Positions 1,933 through 34,555 of a stretch of DNA of 34,555 nt are shown here, piece by piece (position 1 is the first letter of the stretch; every line of letters starts with the position of its first letter). Below the pieces are notes generated by a model, which saw only the letters and a list, made by a program, of their open reading frames with translations, was not told the origin of the DNA and searched no databases. The stretch is from contig JAFDZG010000242.1 of NCBI GenBank assembly GCA_018267065.1, positions 1-34,555 on the forward strand, given 5' to 3'. The position numbers and the translations under genes were made by a program. The DNA comes from Bacteroidota bacterium (GTDB lineage Bacteria > Bacteroidota > Bacteroidia > Flavobacteriales_F > PHOS-HE28).

Positions 1933-4900
1933 ATGCTCCGAAGGATCTCCGCTTTCCTTGTGCCGGTGTTGGCTGTTGCGCTCCCGGCGATGGCAACCCA
2001 TATTTCCGGCGGGGAGATCTACTACGACTGCTTGGGCGGCAACCAGTACCGGATCACGCTGGTGGTGTACCGCGATTGTGCCGGGATCAACCTGAACACT
2101 TCCTACCAGCTGGACGTGCAGAGCCCTTGCGGCAACAGTACGATGACCGTTGCCACGCCCGGCGGCACGGAGATCTCCCAGTTGTGCCAGGCCCAGCTCG
2201 GCAACAGCACCTGCAACGGGGGCACGCTTCCCGGCATGCAGCAGTACATCTACACAGGCACTGTGACGCTCCCGCCCTGCGACTCGTGGACAGTGTCTTG
2301 GAGCGACAACTGGCGGAACGGCGCCATAGCCAACTTGCAGCAACCCGGCAACAAGGACGAATACGTGGAAGCCAAGATCAACAACTTGGACGGGCCGTGC
2401 GATGATTCGCCGCAGTTCACCAACACGGCCATTCCCTATGTCTGCGCCGGGTACCCGATCTCATACAGCTACGGCGCCTTCGATCCCGAAGGTGATTCCC
2501 TGACCTACACCTTCATCAATGCCATGAACACCGGAGGTGTGGACCTCCCCTACGTGGCACCGTACAGCGGGTCGGAGCCCATTGCGGGCATCACCCTGGA
2601 CCAACAAAGCGGGCAGGTGAACTTCACGCTGAACCAGGTGGGCAACTGGGTGGTGGTGGTGCGCGTGGACCAGTATGACAGTACGGGAACCTGGATCGGT
2701 TCGGTGATGCGGGACATGCAGTTCATCGCCTACCCGTGCACCAACATCCCTCCTGACCCGGCTTCGGGAACAGTTGCCAACCTCGCTGGTGATGCCTTGC
2801 AAACCGGGCCGCGGTCGGTGGAGATCTGCGAATCGGGTGATCTCTGTTTCGATGCCGTGATCACCGATGCGAACGCCGGTGACGTGCTGACCATTACCAG
2901 CAACATTGCACAAAACCTGCCAGGGGCCACTATCACAACCACCGGCACCAACCCGCTCACATGCCACATCTGTTGGACGGGCACGCCAGGCACCAATGGC
3001 TTCTTCCCGTTCATCATTACCGCCAATGATGGTGCCTGCCCGATCCCTGCGATGCAGACCTACGTGTTCTCCGTCCATGTGCTTCCGGGGATCAGTTACT
3101 CCGGGCCATTGATCACCAATGAGTCCTGCGCCGGAAGCGGCGATGGCAGTGCGTACGTGAGCGTGGACGTGGGTTTGGAACCGTTCCATTTCCTGTGGAG
3201 CACGGGGGACACCACGAACGAGATCATTGCGGGGCCTGGTACCTACACGGTGTCCATCACGGACGGGAACGGTTGCCAGAACGGCCCGATCACGGCTGTT
3301 ATCGGGGCAGGCCCCTTGCCCGGAACGGCCCAAGCCGGCCCTGATCTGGTGGCGTGCCCCGGAGAACTCCCGGTAAGCCTGCAAGGCGCGGTGACCAATG
3401 CACCCGACGGCTATTGGTACGGCGGTAACGGAACCATTACGGGAACCGGCCTTTCTGCCACTTACCTGCCCACTGCGGCGGAAGTTGCCAGCGGTGGTGC
3501 GGACCTGGTACTAATGACTGCGGGCGAATCACCGTGCGGTGCCGCGCGTGATACCGTGCACATTACTTTCTCCAACAGCTTTGCCAACGCAGCGATCGGC
3601 TCCACCGACCTGTTGTGCAACGGAACAGCCACCGGTACTGCTGCATTCACACCGGACGATCCGGGATTCACCTTTCTGTGGAACGACCCTGCCGCACAAA
3701 CGGCCGCCACAGCCACGAACTTGATGGCTGGTACTTATTCCGTAACGGCAACCGACGCGGCAGGCTGTGACACCACCTTGTCCACCACCATCACCGCGCC
3801 TGCCGCACTGGGCATCGCGAACCTGGCCGTGGTGGATGAAACCTGTGCCGGAAGCGGGAACGGCCAGATCACGGCCACGGTTACCGGCGGAACCGGCCCC
3901 TATCACTTTGCCTGGAGCAATGGGGATACCACAACTTCCATCACGGCCGGGGCAGGCACCTATTCACTTACCGTTACCGATGCCAACGGCTGTGCGCCCG
4001 TGCAAGGCACGGCCTCCATCCAAGCGCTGGGCCAGCCCAATGCAGCCAATGCCGGCGCAGACCTCATTGCTTGCTCCGGCTCGTGGCCCATTGCGCTGCA
4101 AGGCAGCATAACGAACGCCACCGGAGGGCTTTGGTCCGGCGGTGGCGGTTCCTTCACCGGAACCGGGCTGCAGCAATCCTATACGCCAACGGCTGCCGAG
4201 ATCTTGGCACATGGCGTGGACCTCGTGCTTTCCACTACCGGCAATGCAGGCTGTCCACCCGCCTCGGACACCGTTCACATCACGCTTCCCAACAGCTTTT
4301 CCGGTGCAGCCCTTGTTGCCACCATGCCTTCGTGCAACGGGGAACATTCCGGTACCGCCCAGTTCACGCCAGGCTTGCCGGGCTTTACTTACCTCTGGAA
4401 TGACCCTGCTGCCCAAACATCCGCCACGGCAACCAGCCTCGCCGCGGGATCCTACTCCGTGCTTGTAACGGATGCCTTTGGATGTGACACCACGGCCAGC
4501 GTGATCATTTCGGAACCGGCAGCACTTGTTGTGGCCGGCATTTCCGTTGTCCCCCCCACTTGTGCCGGCGCCGCAACCGGCAGCGCCTCCGTCAGTGTTA
4601 CCGGCGGCACGCCGAACTACGGTTACCAATGGGGCACCAACGCGGCTTCGCAGACTTCTTCAACCGCACAAGGGTTGGCGGAAGGTGCTTACACCGTGGT
4701 GGTAACGGACGTGAACGGATGCCAGACGCAAGGCACTGCCACGCTTACCGGCCCGCCCCCGATCACATTGACCGCACAGGTGGAGGACACTGTTTGCGTG
4801 AACGCACCCGTGCCGCTCACCGCCGAAGCCGCTGGAGGGGATGGTTCGTTCACCTATACCTGGCAAGGAATAGGCATCGGTGATTCGATCACGCATGCTT

Positions 4901-6030
4901 TCGCGGCATCGCAGGTGGTGCAAGTGTCCGTAATGGATGGAAATGGTTGCCAAGGCCCCATGGTGGAGCTTCCGGTCACGGTGCTCGACCTTTCACAGGC
5001 CGTGCTGCACACCTATGGTGATACTGCATTCTGCCCGGGTGGTACCGCAACGGTGGGCGCTTACCTCACCGGATATCCGGGCGCGTACACCATCAACTGG
5101 CCGCAACTGCCAGGCGTTGGCGGTGGGCCTTTCCAGCTGCAGCCGGAGGCCACAACAACGGTGGGCGTATCGGTAACGGACGGCTGCGCGAACTCCTTGC
5201 AGGCTTCCATTCCGATCACGGTGGAAACACCTCCCTCGATCAACTTGCCGCCCGTTATCGACGAGGGATGCGCACCGCTCACCGTGCATTTCCCCACCGG
5301 TCTCACCAACCAACCCGTGTCCTACCTGTGGCAATTCGGGGATGGCACCTCCAGCACGTCCATGATGCCGGTGCACGTGTATCCGGCGGGCGACTATGCC
5401 GTTTCGCTTGCGGTGACCACCCCGCTGGGATGCACGGCGGATGCGCTGAACACCGGCATGGTGCATGCTTACGCACCGCCAACTGCCGCTTTCACGGCGA
5501 GCGCGTGGGATACGGACGTAGACCACGCCAATGTGCAGTTCACCGACCAATCCACCGGGTCTGTTTCCGGCTGGGCCTGGACTTTTGGCGACGGAGGTTA
5601 CAGCATAACGGAAAATCCACTTTACCACTTTATGGAACCCGGCACTTGGCAGGTAAGCCTTGAAGTGACCGATGAGCACGGCTGCACGGATGCCACGGAC
5701 CATGCGGTGACCGTGAGCCCCGTGTATGACATTACCATACCCAATGCCTTCACCCCGAACCCGAACGGCGGCAGCGGCGGCAGCTATGATGCCACGGACC
5801 TCAGCAATGACGTGTTCTATCCGTTCGTGCGCTTCGTAAAGGATTTCCGGATGCGGGTGTTCAACCGGTGGGGTGAACTGGTCTTTGAAAGCAACGACAT
5901 AAAACAAGGTTGGGACGGCTACTACAAGGGCCACATCAGCCAGCAGGACGTGTACGTATACCAGCTCTGGGTGCGCTTTGTGGACAACAAGGAAGTACAG
6001 CGCATGGGCGACCTCACCCTCTTCCGATAA
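1933..6030 (+). CDS. Giant T9SS-secreted surface adhesin, PKD/SprB-like repeats, type B sorting domain
   Basis: This is a 1365-aa secreted protein. A signal peptide (about 1-21, ending PAMA) is followed by THISGGEIYYDCLGG, a start often seen in large Bacteroidota surface proteins. SprB-type repeats follow (W-x-G-x-T...AGTYTVTVTDxxGC). A module of about 239 residues occurs at roughly 466-704 and again from 705 (nucleotide period 717). Two PKD-like domains carry the FGDG signature near residues 1133 and 1217. The last about 100 residues (IPNAFTPNPNG ... FNRWGELVFES ... GWDGYYKG ... VYVYQLWVRFVD) are the gliding-motility-associated type B C-terminal domain used for type IX secretion. A PorP/SprF gene starts 3 bp after the stop, a common pairing. 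The likely role is adhesion or surface structure; the exact ligand is unknown. Confidence 0.93.
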   Translation: MLRRISAFLVPVLAVALPAMATHISGGEIYYDCLGGNQYRITLVVYRDCAGINLNTSYQLDVQSPCGNSTMTVATPGGTEISQLCQAQLGNSTCNGGTLPGMQQYIYTGTVTLPPCDSWTVSWSDNWRNGAIANLQQPGNKDEYVEAKINNLDGPCDDSPQFTNTAIPYVCAGYPISYSYGAFDPEGDSLTYTFINAMNTGGVDLPYVAPYSGSEPIAGITLDQQSGQVNFTLNQVGNWVVVVRVDQYDSTGTWIGSVMRDMQFIAYPCTNIPPDPASGTVANLAGDALQTGPRSVEICESGDLCFDAVITDANAGDVLTITSNIAQNLPGATITTTGTNPLTCHICWTGTPGTNGFFPFIITANDGACPIPAMQTYVFSVHVLPGISYSGPLITNESCAGSGDGSAYVSVDVGLEPFHFLWSTGDTTNEIIAGPGTYTVSITDGNGCQNGPITAVIGAGPLPGTAQAGPDLVACPGELPVSLQGAVTNAPDGYWYGGNGTITGTGLSATYLPTAAEVASGGADLVLMTAGESPCGAARDTVHITFSNSFANAAIGSTDLLCNGTATGTAAFTPDDPGFTFLWNDPAAQTAATATNLMAGTYSVTATDAAGCDTTLSTTITAPAALGIANLAVVDETCAGSGNGQITATVTGGTGPYHFAWSNGDTTTSITAGAGTYSLTVTDANGCAPVQGTASIQALGQPNAANAGADLIACSGSWPIALQGSITNATGGLWSGGGGSFTGTGLQQSYTPTAAEILAHGVDLVLSTTGNAGCPPASDTVHITLPNSFSGAALVATMPSCNGEHSGTAQFTPGLPGFTYLWNDPAAQTSATATSLAAGSYSVLVTDAFGCDTTASVIISEPAALVVAGISVVPPTCAGAATGSASVSVTGGTPNYGYQWGTNAASQTSSTAQGLAEGAYTVVVTDVNGCQTQGTATLTGPPPITLTAQVEDTVCVNAPVPLTAEAAGGDGSFTYTWQGIGIGDSITHAFAASQVVQVSVMDGNGCQGPMVELPVTVLDLSQAVLHTYGDTAFCPGGTATVGAYLTGYPGAYTINWPQLPGVGGGPFQLQPEATTTVGVSVTDGCANSLQASIPITVETPPSINLPPVIDEGCAPLTVHFPTGLTNQPVSYLWQFGDGTSSTSMMPVHVYPAGDYAVSLAVTTPLGCTADALNTGMVHAYAPPTAAFTASAWDTDVDHANVQFTDQSTGSVSGWAWTFGDGGYSITENPLYHFMEPGTWQVSLEVTDEHGCTDATDHAVTVSPVYDITIPNAFTPNPNGGSGGSYDATDLSNDVFYPFVRFVKDFRMRVFNRWGELVFESNDIKQGWDGYYKGHISQQDVYVYQLWVRFVDNKEVQRMGDLTLFR
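3331..4764 (+). repeat. In-gene duplicated module of about 717 bp (239 aa)
   Basis: Within the adhesin gene, the segment beginning QAGPDLVACPG (3331) recurs 717 bp later as NAGADLIACSG (4048). Both copies contain, in order, LQG-x-TNA, a GGxGxxTGTGL run, YxPTAAE, ADLVL/VDLVL, DTVHIT, NSF, WNDPAAQT-x-ATAT, YSV-x-xTDAxGCDTT and TCAG. Conservation is at protein level with diverged DNA, so this is an old duplication. The end of the second copy is approximate. Confidence 0.7.
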
Positions 6031-6033
6031 GCC

Positions 6034-7035
6034 ATGCCGCCAAGCCGAAGCCGCTTATTGTTGCCCGCCTTGATGCTGGCAGCCTGTGCCTTTGGCCAAG
6101 ACCCGCAGCTCTCGCAGTTCTATGCCGCACCGATGTACTTGAACCCGGCGCTCACCGGAAACACCAATCAGGACCGCCTTGCGCTGAATTACCGCCTGCA
6201 ATGGCCTGCCATCGGGCCAGGCTACAAGACCTACGCCGTGGCGTATGATCATCGCAGCACCGATCTGAACAGCGGTTTCGGAGGCATGGTGATGCACGAC
6301 CGCGCCGGCACACAAGGCCTTTCCTTCACGCAGATGGCCTTCAACTATTCCTATGAGGCACGGCTGAACAGGCGGCAAGCGATCCGTGGGGGGCTCAGGG
6401 CCGCATACACGTTGCGCACGATGGACTGGGGCAACATGCTGTTCGCCGACCAAGTGATCCGCGAGAATGCGCAAACCTCGGTGGAACCGTTGCTGTTGCA
6501 GAGCATCTCCTACTTTGACTTCTCCGCCGGGGTGCTCTACTACTCTGAGCAGCTCTGGGGCGGCATCTCCGTGAACCACCTCAACCAGCCGCAACAAAGC
6601 CTGTTCCTGGAAGGGGATGCCCGGTTGCCGATGCGAACCAGCGTCCATGCCGGTTACCGCTTTCCGGTAGATGGCCAGCCTTTCCGATCAAGCAAGACCC
6701 TGATGACCCTTGCGGCGCATTACAAGGCACAGGAGAAATGGGACCAACTGGACCTGGGCGGCTACGTGGACCACAACGGCGTGTCCTTTGGCCTGTGGTA
6801 CCGCGGGATCCCGGGATTAAAGGCCTATGAACCGGGCCAGCCCAACGATGAAGCCGCAGTGTTGCTGCTGGGCTATGAGACACCCTACCAGCTGCAAGTG
6901 GCCTACAGTTATGATGTCACGATCTCCAAATTGACCATGAAGAGCGGAGGGGCGCATGAGATCAGCGTGATCTACGAGTGGCCCAAGCACGGCAAAAACC
7001 GCAAGTACCGCTCCATTCCTTGCCCGAAGTTCTGA
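6034..7035 (+). CDS. PorP/SprF family type IX secretion outer-membrane protein
   Basis: The product is 333 aa. A signal peptide (about 1-21, ending CAFGQ) is followed by DPQLSQFYAAPMYLNPALTG, the hallmark N-terminus of the PorP/SprF family. Alternating beta-barrel-like segments with FGGMV and YNG-like turns follow, and the C-terminus is YRSIPCPKF, resembling the terminal CPxF of the family. Members are outer-membrane components associated with the type IX secretion system. SprF is needed for secretion of the adhesin SprB, and copies often follow genes for large type B CTD proteins. The gene starts 3 bp after the adhesin stop (taa-gcc-atg), so the two are almost certainly one operon, and this protein is likely dedicated to that adhesin (inference). 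Confidence 0.93.
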   Translation: MPPSRSRLLLPALMLAACAFGQDPQLSQFYAAPMYLNPALTGNTNQDRLALNYRLQWPAIGPGYKTYAVAYDHRSTDLNSGFGGMVMHDRAGTQGLSFTQMAFNYSYEARLNRRQAIRGGLRAAYTLRTMDWGNMLFADQVIRENAQTSVEPLLLQSISYFDFSAGVLYYSEQLWGGISVNHLNQPQQSLFLEGDARLPMRTSVHAGYRFPVDGQPFRSSKTLMTLAAHYKAQEKWDQLDLGGYVDHNGVSFGLWYRGIPGLKAYEPGQPNDEAAVLLLGYETPYQLQVAYSYDVTISKLTMKSGGAHEISVIYEWPKHGKNRKYRSIPCPKF

Positions 7036-32294: not shown

Positions 32295-33389
32295 ATGAAA
32301 CACTCATTTGCCTTGGTCCTTCCGGCCCTGCTCAGCGTGTGCGCATGCAACCGCCCTTCAGTCTTTGACAGGCCGGAACAGGTGAACCCGGACAAGCTGC
32401 CCCACGTGGTGCAAGAGATGGTGCCACCACCGGCCCTCCCCAAATTCGACCAGGCGGCGCAAGGAGGGCCCGTCATTGTGGACGTGAGGCTGACGGTGCA
32501 GGAGAAAAAGATGCAGATCGCCCCGCATGCCAGCATTTGGGCACTCACGTTCAACGGCAGCGTGCCGGGCCCGATGATCGTGGCGCACCAAGGCGACTAT
32601 GTGCAGTTGACGCTTGTGAACCCGAAGACCAATACGCTTACGCACAACATTGACTTCCACGCGGCCACAGGGGCCATGGGGGGAGGTGACCTTTCTGAAG
32701 TAGCCCCGGGCCAAGAGTCCACCATCCGCTTCCGTGTGCTGAAGCCCGGTGTCTTCGTTTACCATTGCGCACCCGGCGGGGCCATGACGCCCCTGCACGT
32801 CACCTCCGGAATGAACGGGGCCATCATGGTGCTGCCACGCGGGGGCCTCACCGATGAGAATGGCAAGGCCTTGAAGTTTGACCGCGCATACTATGTGGCG
32901 GAACAGGACTATTACATCCGCAAGGATGACCAGGGCATGTACAAGGATTACCCCACCCCCGCAGCTGGTTTTGCGGACATGATCCCGGTAATGGCCTCGC
33001 TAACGCCATCGCACATCGTATTCAATGGAAAGGCAGGTTCCCTTTTGAACGAGAACGCCATGAAAGCCGCCGTGGGTGAGAAGGTGCTCTTCATTACTTC
33101 ATCATGCAACATCGATGCCCGGTTCCACATCATCGGCGGGCATGCCGACCTGCTGTGGGAAGGCGGCTCCTTCAACGACAGGCCCGTTACCGATCGTGAA
33201 ACGTGGTTCGTTCCGGGCGGGTCCGCAGTGGCGGCGCTCTACCAGTTCCGCCTGCCGGGCACCTATGCCTTCGTGGACCACAACCTGATCAAGGCGGAGG
33301 TGTTTGATGCCAGGGCACAGGTGAAGGTGACCGGCGACTGGGACGACAGCATCATGGAACAAGTGGCCAAGCCGCACAATTCCCAATAA
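32295..33389 (+). CDS. nirK: Copper-containing nitrite reductase (lipoprotein)
   Basis: The 364-aa product is a two-domain multicopper enzyme that reduces nitrite to nitric oxide in the periplasm. The signal region MKHSFALVLPALLSVCACNR has a likely lipobox with Cys18, so the protein is probably lipid-anchored. Copper ligands are seen. Type 1: His117, Cys158, His168, Met173 (HNIDFH, YHCAPGGAMTPLHVTSGM). Type 2: His122, His157 and His283 (GGHADLLW). The catalytic Asp120 and His240 (TPSHIVFNG) are also kept. The earlier ATG at 32199 overlaps aroE and lacks a signal peptide, so 32295 is used. No other denitrification gene or accessory nirV is in view. It converges with the ECF sigma gene across 9 bp. 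Confidence 0.95.
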   Translation: MKHSFALVLPALLSVCACNRPSVFDRPEQVNPDKLPHVVQEMVPPPALPKFDQAAQGGPVIVDVRLTVQEKKMQIAPHASIWALTFNGSVPGPMIVAHQGDYVQLTLVNPKTNTLTHNIDFHAATGAMGGGDLSEVAPGQESTIRFRVLKPGVFVYHCAPGGAMTPLHVTSGMNGAIMVLPRGGLTDENGKALKFDRAYYVAEQDYYIRKDDQGMYKDYPTPAAGFADMIPVMASLTPSHIVFNGKAGSLLNENAMKAAVGEKVLFITSSCNIDARFHIIGGHADLLWEGGSFNDRPVTDRETWFVPGGSAVAALYQFRLPGTYAFVDHNLIKAEVFDARAQVKVTGDWDDSIMEQVAKPHNSQ

Positions 33390-33398
33390 ACGCCCGGC

Positions 33399-34061
33399 TC
33401 AGATCCGCGCCAACACCCATTCCACCATGCGGTCGCAATGGCTGTTCCCAAACTCGAAGGCAGGGCCCCGCGCATGCAGGCTCCATACAAGATCCTTCAA
33501 CATGTCCTTTGCACGGTGAAGGCGCACCTTCACATTGCTCTCGCCGAGGCCCAGGCATGCCGCAGTATCGGCCACGCCCATGCCTTCCACCTCCCGCAGC
33601 ATGTACACGGCGCGGTAGCTCTCCGGCAGCCGGTCAATGGCTTGTTCCAACAACCTGCGGTGCTCTCCCTGGATGGTGTGTTGTTCCGGGTTCATCTGTC
33701 CTGGGTCTGATACCTGTTCCAATTGGTCCGCGCTGATAACACCCGGGTGGACGCGCATGAGCCGCCGTTTCCGCAACTGCTGCAGCGCTTCATTGATGCC
33801 AATGCGGACCAGCCACGTGCTGAAGGCCGAATTCCCCTTGAACTGGTCCAGTTTGGCGAACGCTTTCAAATAGGTTTCCTGCATGGCGTCCCGCACGTCG
33901 TCCTCATCGCTCAAGTAACTGCGCACCGCCCGGAACAAGGTTTGGTTATAGCGGCGCATCAGGATCTCATACAACCCCTTTTCGCCTTGGAGCACGCGGC
34001 TCACCACCTCCATGTCCCCCAAGGATGCACTACCTTTCAGGTCCAACCTTTTCGCTTCCAT
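33399..34061 (-). CDS. RNA polymerase sigma factor, ECF type
   Basis: The product is 220 aa. Sigma region 2 is LYEILMRRYNQTLFRAVRSYLSDEDDVRDAMQETYLKAFAKLDQFKGNSAFSTWLVRIGINEALQQLRKRR (about 34-105). After a linker (residues about 105-140), region 4 follows: AIDRLPESYRAVYMLREVEGMGVADTAACLGLGESNVKVRLHRAKDMLKDL, with its helix-turn-helix. The C-terminus FEFGNSHCDRMVEWVLARI adds a Cys/His-containing tail. The open frame runs to 34226, but that part crosses the dyad promoter; the start at 34061 (MEAKRLDLKGSASLGD) is 30 nt after the dyad. No anti-sigma gene is adjacent. It is likely autoregulated through the dyad (inference). Confidence 0.92.
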   Translation of the reverse strand: MEAKRLDLKGSASLGDMEVVSRVLQGEKGLYEILMRRYNQTLFRAVRSYLSDEDDVRDAMQETYLKAFAKLDQFKGNSAFSTWLVRIGINEALQQLRKRRLMRVHPGVISADQLEQVSDPGQMNPEQHTIQGEHRRLLEQAIDRLPESYRAVYMLREVEGMGVADTAACLGLGESNVKVRLHRAKDMLKDLVWSLHARGPAFEFGNSHCDRMVEWVLARI

Positions 34062-34091: not shown

Positions 34092-34162
34092 CCCATTGGA
34101 TGACGCCCGGACAACAAGGTTACAATTTTTGTAACCCGCCCCGCCAGGTTGCATCCAATGGG
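34092..34162. promoter_or_regulatory. Nested dyad: divergent ECF-type promoter/operator
   Basis: An inner palindrome GGTTACAA-TTT-TTGTAACC (34118-34136) and an outer inverted pair CCCATTGGATG (34092-34102) / CATCCAATGGG (34152-34162) share the same centre, 34127. Read away from the centre, both strands give TTGTAACC, 15 nt, CATCCAATGGG. The 15-nt spacers are unrelated. TTGTAAC contains the AAC core typical of ECF -35 elements, and the outer block sits at -10 distance. The minus side leads to the ECF sigma gene, the plus side to the reductase gene. Confidence 0.7.
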
Positions 34163-34249: not shown

Positions 34250-34555
34250 ATGGAAATTCCTGTTACGCTCCTGAACAAGGAACAGCTCACCCACGATGTG
34301 GTGCGCCTTACGTTGGAACGCCCCAAGAACTATGATTTCTTCGCCGGCCAGGCCATTGACTTCCGCTTGGACCGCCCTGAAACAAAAGACAAGGTTTCGC
34401 CCTTCACCTTTACCGGGCTGAACACCGCGAACCACTTGGAATTGACGATCAAATGCTATCCTTCCCACCACGGCATGACCGAACAGGTGGCGAAGCTCCA
34501 GGCGGGTGATGAAGTGATCATCAGCGAACCCTTTGACACGGTGGCGTTGAAGGGC
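34250..34555 (+). CDS. FAD-binding ferredoxin/flavodoxin reductase-like protein (partial, N-terminus)
   Basis: The first 102 residues are in the window; the frame is open to the edge. MEIPVTLLNKEQLTHDVVRLTLERP begins a ferredoxin-NADP reductase type FAD-binding beta-barrel. FFAGQAIDFRL and SPFTFTGL follow (the RxY[ST]-like flavin-binding position, here with Phe), then ELTIKCYPSHHGMTEQVAKLQAGDEVIISEPF, matching the domain's later strands. The NAD(P) domain lies outside. It is transcribed away from the ECF sigma gene, 188 bp apart, with the shared dyad between, so it is probably a target of that sigma (inference). The ATG has no clear ribosome-binding site. Confidence 0.85.
   Translation, partial: MEIPVTLLNKEQLTHDVVRLTLERPKNYDFFAGQAIDFRLDRPETKDKVSPFTFTGLNTANHLELTIKCYPSHHGMTEQVAKLQAGDEVIISEPFDTVALKG

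Follow-up and report, generated by a model that had tools for sequence, protein, structure and literature searches.

Back-to-back copies of a predicted ECF sigma factor promoter between a sigma gene and a divergent reductase gene in a Bacteroidota draft genome

The DNA analysed here (the window, 34,555 nt) is the whole of contig JAFDZG010000242.1, labelled G000:C158 in our set, from the Bacteroidota assembly GCA_018267065.1, a 3.34-Mb draft genome in 348 contigs; among named genomes its nearest relatives are assemblies from metagenomes, of Flavobacteriales/Bacteroidota. A gene for an extracytoplasmic function (ECF) sigma factor and a gene for an FAD/NAD(P)-binding reductase diverge from an intergenic region in which an initial annotation, made from the sequence alone, had described a centred double inverted repeat as a symmetrical divergent promoter. 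The genes and the predicted promoter parts are as follows.

33399..34061, minus strand: ECF sigma factor gene, 220 amino acids, with a C-terminal extension bearing an invariant C209-D210 (Sigma70_r2, Sigma70_r4_2, NF008888).
34096..34102, minus strand: predicted -10 element CATCCAA for the sigma gene, separated from its -35 element by 15 bp, with the ATG 34 nt beyond.
34118..34124, minus strand: predicted -35 element TGTAACC for the sigma gene, conserved across an alignment of 26 sites.
34130..34136, plus strand: predicted -35 element TGTAACC of the reductase promoter, from the same 26-site alignment.
34152..34158, plus strand: predicted -10 element CATCCAA for the reductase gene, separated from its -35 element by 15 bp, with the ATG 91 nt beyond.
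34250..34555, plus strand: 5' part of the FAD/NAD(P)-binding reductase gene (FAD_binding_6); the contig ends within the gene.

The sigma protein matches Sigma70_r2 and Sigma70_r4_2 above cut-off, and having only sigma-70 regions 2 and 4 it has the make-up of an ECF (group IV) factor; against the NF008888/PRK11922 family it scores 229.1 bits (curated cut-off 204). The reductase gene is incomplete because the window is the entire contig; complete relatives additionally carry NAD_binding_1.

Two perfect inverted repeats are nested between these genes. The outer arms, CCCATTGGATG (34092-34102) and CATCCAATGGG (34152-34162), are 11 nt long, the inner arms, GGTTACAA (34118-34125) and TTGTAACC (34129-34136), are 8 nt long with a gap of 3 nt, and both pairs are 100% complementary and share one exact centre at 34127. 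Nowhere else in the window do perfect arms of at least 9 and at least 8 bp share a centre, and such a centre arose in 0 of 41 dinucleotide-shuffled windows; the repeats are therefore confirmed as first described. Outward on either strand the region reads TTGTAACC-N15-CATCCAATGGG, the two 15-nt spacers being unrelated to each other. Judged by its sequence, the dyad is two outward-facing copies of a bipartite element, TGTAACY-N15-CATCYAA, one directed at the sigma gene and one at the reductase gene.

Both blocks recur upstream of 15 sigma relatives from other genomes (41-76% identity), in both directions in nearly all of them; the most distant of the 15, from Chloracidobacterium (L021), has degenerate versions only. 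The element is thus conserved upstream of sigma orthologues across Bacteroidota, to about 40% identity, which answers the comparison with relatives that the initial annotation had proposed as a check. Alignment of 26 homologous sites with a spacer of 15 gave the consensus TGTAACY-N14-G-CATCCAA followed by a weak TG. In the corresponding logo the element blocks mostly carry 1.2-2.0 bits per position and the spacer approximately 0, bearing out the earlier view that identical blocks are constrained in both directions and the sequence between them is not. The proposal of TTGTAAC as an ECF -35 element is supported, since TGTAACY is conserved at the 26 sites and matches the GTAACC of studied ECF16 promoters. 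The second block fared less evenly: as a -10 element it is supported in the form CATCYAA with an optional leading G, but the full CATCCAATGGG is not conserved, the outer GGG of the 11-bp arm being variable among the 26 sites.

Spacing was tested with sites scoring at least 12/14 in 35 upstream regions, including those of phylum-wide orthologues. A sigma-ward site with spacer 15 was found in 25 of the 35, compared with 0-1 at each of spacers 11-14 and 16-18, and the divergent pair was present in 20 of the 35; a site occurred in 0.6% of shuffled upstream regions. The matches that the control table shows at spacer 10 come from N15 sites read at T-rich offsets and from unrelated weak matches. Among the sigma relatives the -10 element lies approximately 30-50 nt upstream of the sigma ATG. 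A bipartite -35/-10 of fixed spacing, with an AAC-type -35 and common to the sigma gene and other genes, is what is expected of ECF promoters, and is found here by sequence. The suggestion that the second block is the site of a separate regulator finds no support.

The two TGTAAC blocks mostly stand 5-10 bp apart (5, 6, 7, 8 or 10); distances of 20, 32, 34, 154 and 161 bp were found as well. At one locus (L176, G208:C8:95282-95325) the two elements point towards each other and overlap because they have a palindromic -10, TTAGATGCATCCAA, in common, a geometry opposite to that of the window, and before the DUF4142 operon described below the element is single in several genomes, with no mirror half. 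Because the distance varies from 5 to 161 bp or the elements overlap, this comparison of sequences identifies two independent promoters rather than one symmetrical device. Identical elements placed 5 bp apart yield the exact centring in the window as a by-product, so the perfect centring is incidental and the symmetrical device of the initial annotation is not upheld.

Copies elsewhere in the genome were sought in 45 genomes of the same genus, using the reversed pattern as control; the source genome was examined by pattern searches. The exact element gave 30 matches and the reversed control 0. The sigma locus accounts for 20 of the 30, and nine of the remaining ten fall in sigma-carrying genomes, 8-36 nt before a gene start: seven before a DUF4142 gene with a cupredoxin gene next, one before a gene for 6-pyruvoyl-tetrahydropterin synthase (6-PTPS) and one before a small uncharacterised gene. 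The tenth (in G014) has no gene close behind. Of the 14 genomes of the genus with the sigma, 9 have a gene of the DUF4142 subfamily, compared with 0 of the 31 others, and all nine genes are preceded by the element, two of them with two mismatches. In a wider search of 12 sigma carriers from other genera and families, the sigma locus again accounted for most matches; the others include one before DUF4142-cupredoxin (G364), one 25 nt before 6-PTPS/folE (G208) and one before an FHA-domain-like gene (G397). The 12 sigma-negative genomes of that wider search gave just three scattered matches. The genome-wide search recommended at the outset thus finds the element directly before other genes, almost only in sigma-carrying genomes. 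From this placement the element probably drives the DUF4142-cupredoxin operon; its role before 6-PTPS and folE is less secure. We had at first doubted the 6-PTPS sites as chance matches, on account of a housekeeping-like box noted below that three of them overlap, until the site in the distant genome G208 restored support for them; we regard 6-PTPS as a probable target.

We consider it very probable, on these sequence comparisons, that the dyad consists of back-to-back identical promoters of the adjacent sigma factor, which would be autoregulated and have a small redox/copper/pterin regulon. In the holoenzyme, sigma region 4 would read TGTAACY as -35 and region 2 would read (G)CATCYAA as -10, 15 bp on, with transcription starting outward. 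The leftward promoter would then serve the sigma gene itself (positive autoregulation), the rightward promoter the FAD/NAD(P) reductase operon, and the same element elsewhere the DUF4142-cupredoxin operon and probably 6-PTPS and folE; it is from the copies before these genes that the regulon is predicted. Conservation, spacing, orientation, placement before genes and co-occurrence with the sigma gene are directly visible, and from them we infer the reading of the element by the neighbouring sigma, the start sites and the autoregulatory loop. Competition between two polymerases is likewise expected, because the -35 elements are merely 5 bp apart; it seems at least as likely as the equal output in both directions that had been predicted, and the spacers and start-site regions of the two promoters differ. 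The underlying proposal, that each half is an outward ECF-type -35/-10 promoter for the neighbouring sigma, passes the computational checks of conservation, genome-wide placement and co-occurrence.

Four observations weigh against this interpretation. The element is present in 14/14 sigma-carrying and 1/31 sigma-less genomes of the genus (Fisher 9e-11), but such co-occurrence figures are inflated, most copies being the sigma locus itself and the genomes sharing ancestry. In the most distant sigma relatives (L126-L131) the pair is missing from the corresponding position. In three genomes the site before 6-PTPS shares bases with a TAnnTTTG-like box of the housekeeping type. Finally, no anti-sigma gene was recognised beside the sigma gene in the window or in the inspected neighbourhoods of relatives, where unannotated small genes, including the DoxX-like gene treated below, may still encode regulators.

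The elements could be ECF promoters read by a different sigma, with the neighbouring sigma gene merely a target. Each genome has approximately 13-46 sigma-like gene candidates at first look, but the element tracks this particular sigma in the genus, as counted above, and copies away from the locus are almost confined to its carriers, making another reader improbable. It is very improbable, too, that a dimeric regulator (such as one of the CRP/FNR class) binds the palindrome GGTTACAA-N3-TTGTAACC, alone or together with the outer arms, as its operator and that housekeeping promoters serve both genes. A perfect short palindrome between divergent genes is what such a regulator would use, and in many relatives the TGTAAC blocks do remain 5-8 bp apart; yet the half-sites keep no fixed distance (5-161 bp) and are reversed and overlapping in G208, unpaired copies precede DUF4142 in several genomes, the constant feature is the link between TGTAACY and CATCYAA, and a simple scan of the intergenic region of the window revealed no TAnnTTTG-like housekeeping -7 box. 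On account of the variable or overlapping spacing and the single copies we rejected the operator. That the double dyad is due to chance, or is a structural DNA or RNA hairpin without promoter function, is scarcely credible given its absence from the shuffled windows and the conservation of blocks, but not spacers, at 40-76% sigma identity; if the predicted starts are right, the inner arms are untranscribed, and an RNA hairpin is therefore not expected.

The divergent partner of the sigma gene varies by lineage while the promoter pair is kept; it may be the FAD reductase gene (usually then folE), a gene for a DoxX-like membrane protein or, in Muriicola, a gene for a c-type-cytochrome-like (CxxCH) lipoprotein together with YceI. 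At the Muriicola locus (L020:3884-6944) the sigma gene is flanked on its opposite side by genes for a DUF5777 beta-barrel protein and a further CxxCH lipoprotein. At three loci (L154-L156) the sigma gene sits within an apparent operon, preceded by a DoxX-like or DUF4142 gene, and the same genes are therefore linked to it independently of the motif. One sigma gene (L010:4971-5636, the same as in G017:C104) has an in-frame TAG with both promoters intact, and is either a pseudogene or affected by a sequencing error. Elsewhere in the window (1933-7035) a gene for a large PKD-repeat-like surface protein (1365 amino acids) is followed by one for a PorP/SprF-like membrane protein, which by eye from the translations form a type IX secretion-type pair.

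On its other side the sigma gene is convergent with a nitrite reductase gene.

32295..33389, plus strand: copper nitrite reductase gene nirK (TIGR02376, 436 bits), the start picked from the reading frame by inspection.

Above-cut-off nirK was found in 8 of the 45 genomes of the genus, namely 8/14 sigma-carrying and 0/31 others (Fisher 1.4e-5), and adjoins the sigma gene in five of them. All eight are among the 9 genomes with the DUF4142 gene. As a direct target nirK was rejected, no element being found upstream of it in the window or in relatives with nirK beside the sigma gene. It is plausible that the sigma has a part in envelope stress caused by nitrite, copper or redox conditions; envelope stress of an oxidative, nitrosative or copper kind as the inducing signal is speculative.

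An adjacent anti-sigma gene is usual for ECF sigma genes, but not universal. No DUF1109-type membrane anti-sigma gene was recognised among the inspected neighbours, for which no DUF1109 model search was made. The C-terminal extension of the sigma, with its invariant C209-D210, is modelled as a short helix at lower confidence. The uncharacterised DoxX-like protein (L018:4514-4894 and 16 relatives) has approximately 126 amino acids and a conserved DVAVRD near its C terminus, and its gene is either divergent from or in line with the sigma gene across Bacteroidota. It had no Pfam or NCBIfam match, and a sequence search of solved structures gave none either. It is confidently modelled with four helices (predicted local distance difference test score 93), and in a fold search TMEM35A/NACHO was the sole convincing match, with a template modelling score of 0.72 but an E value of 0.04. 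We speculate that either the DoxX-like protein or the C-terminal extension is a sensor. A fuller proposal, which we hold unlikely as a whole, is that of a Bacteroidota-wide ECF system without a conventional anti-sigma, in which the DoxX-like protein or the Cys-Asp pair would act as sensor, a nitrosative or copper signal would be linked to pterin synthesis and to the provision of cupredoxin for NirK, and the promoter pair would be usable by one polymerase at a time.

The proposed mechanism, in which an ECF sigma activates its own gene and a divergent target, is of a known kind. The closest -35 element is that of ECF16, represented by Caulobacter SigF and Bradyrhizobium EcfF, whose tGTAACc is nearly identical to the element here and whose spacing is similar (PMC3420878, PMC3511200). 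ECF16 promoters read tGTAACc-N16-CGAA (PMC3420878), so that the -35 agrees while the -10, CGAA compared with CATCYAA after N15 here, does not. EcfF and SigF have linked membrane anti-sigmas, OsrA and NrsF respectively, whereas none was recognised here (PMC3420878, PMC3511200). Another likeness is the small stress regulon, which for SigF includes a DoxX-family protein (PMC3511200) and answers chromium and cadmium (PMC3511200). In view of the different -10, and having recognised no anti-sigma gene of the ECF16 type, we do not file the sigma under ECF16. The regulons of Neisseria SigE and Haemophilus RpoE2 contain a cluster with a DoxX-family gene, and that of Neisseria also a NirK-like protein, resembling the association with the DoxX-like gene and nirK here (PMC7907618); nirK here lacks the element, and the DoxX-like proteins are likened by description. 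SigE and RpoE2 are oxidative-stress ECFs that control msrAB and have a co-encoded small zinc-type anti-sigma, of which no counterpart was recognised here (PMC7907618). Bradyrhizobium EcfQ (ECF33), likened by description, also has no linked anti-sigma gene and is induced by reactive oxygen species, but no target motif was identifiable for it, unlike here (PMC3420878). Within Bacteroidota, ECF-type promoters are described for Flavobacterium psychrophilum SM6; the string TGTAAC is absent from the text of that paper (PMC9723704). When the two blocks were searched for in combination, none of the papers listed was relevant, and CATCYAA as a -10 element was absent from the literature searched, which did not take in the current ECF classification.

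To our knowledge, Bacteroidota have few established ECF target promoters. With a specific 14-base element of fixed spacing, a candidate sigma and a small set of predicted targets, this regulon is open to direct testing. The series of spacings from 5 to 161 bp, together with the overlapping arrangement, is a natural experiment on interference between back-to-back sigma promoters. The nirK and cupredoxin genes, confined in the genus to sigma-carrying genomes, point to a nitrite, copper or redox role for this system in environmental Bacteroidota.
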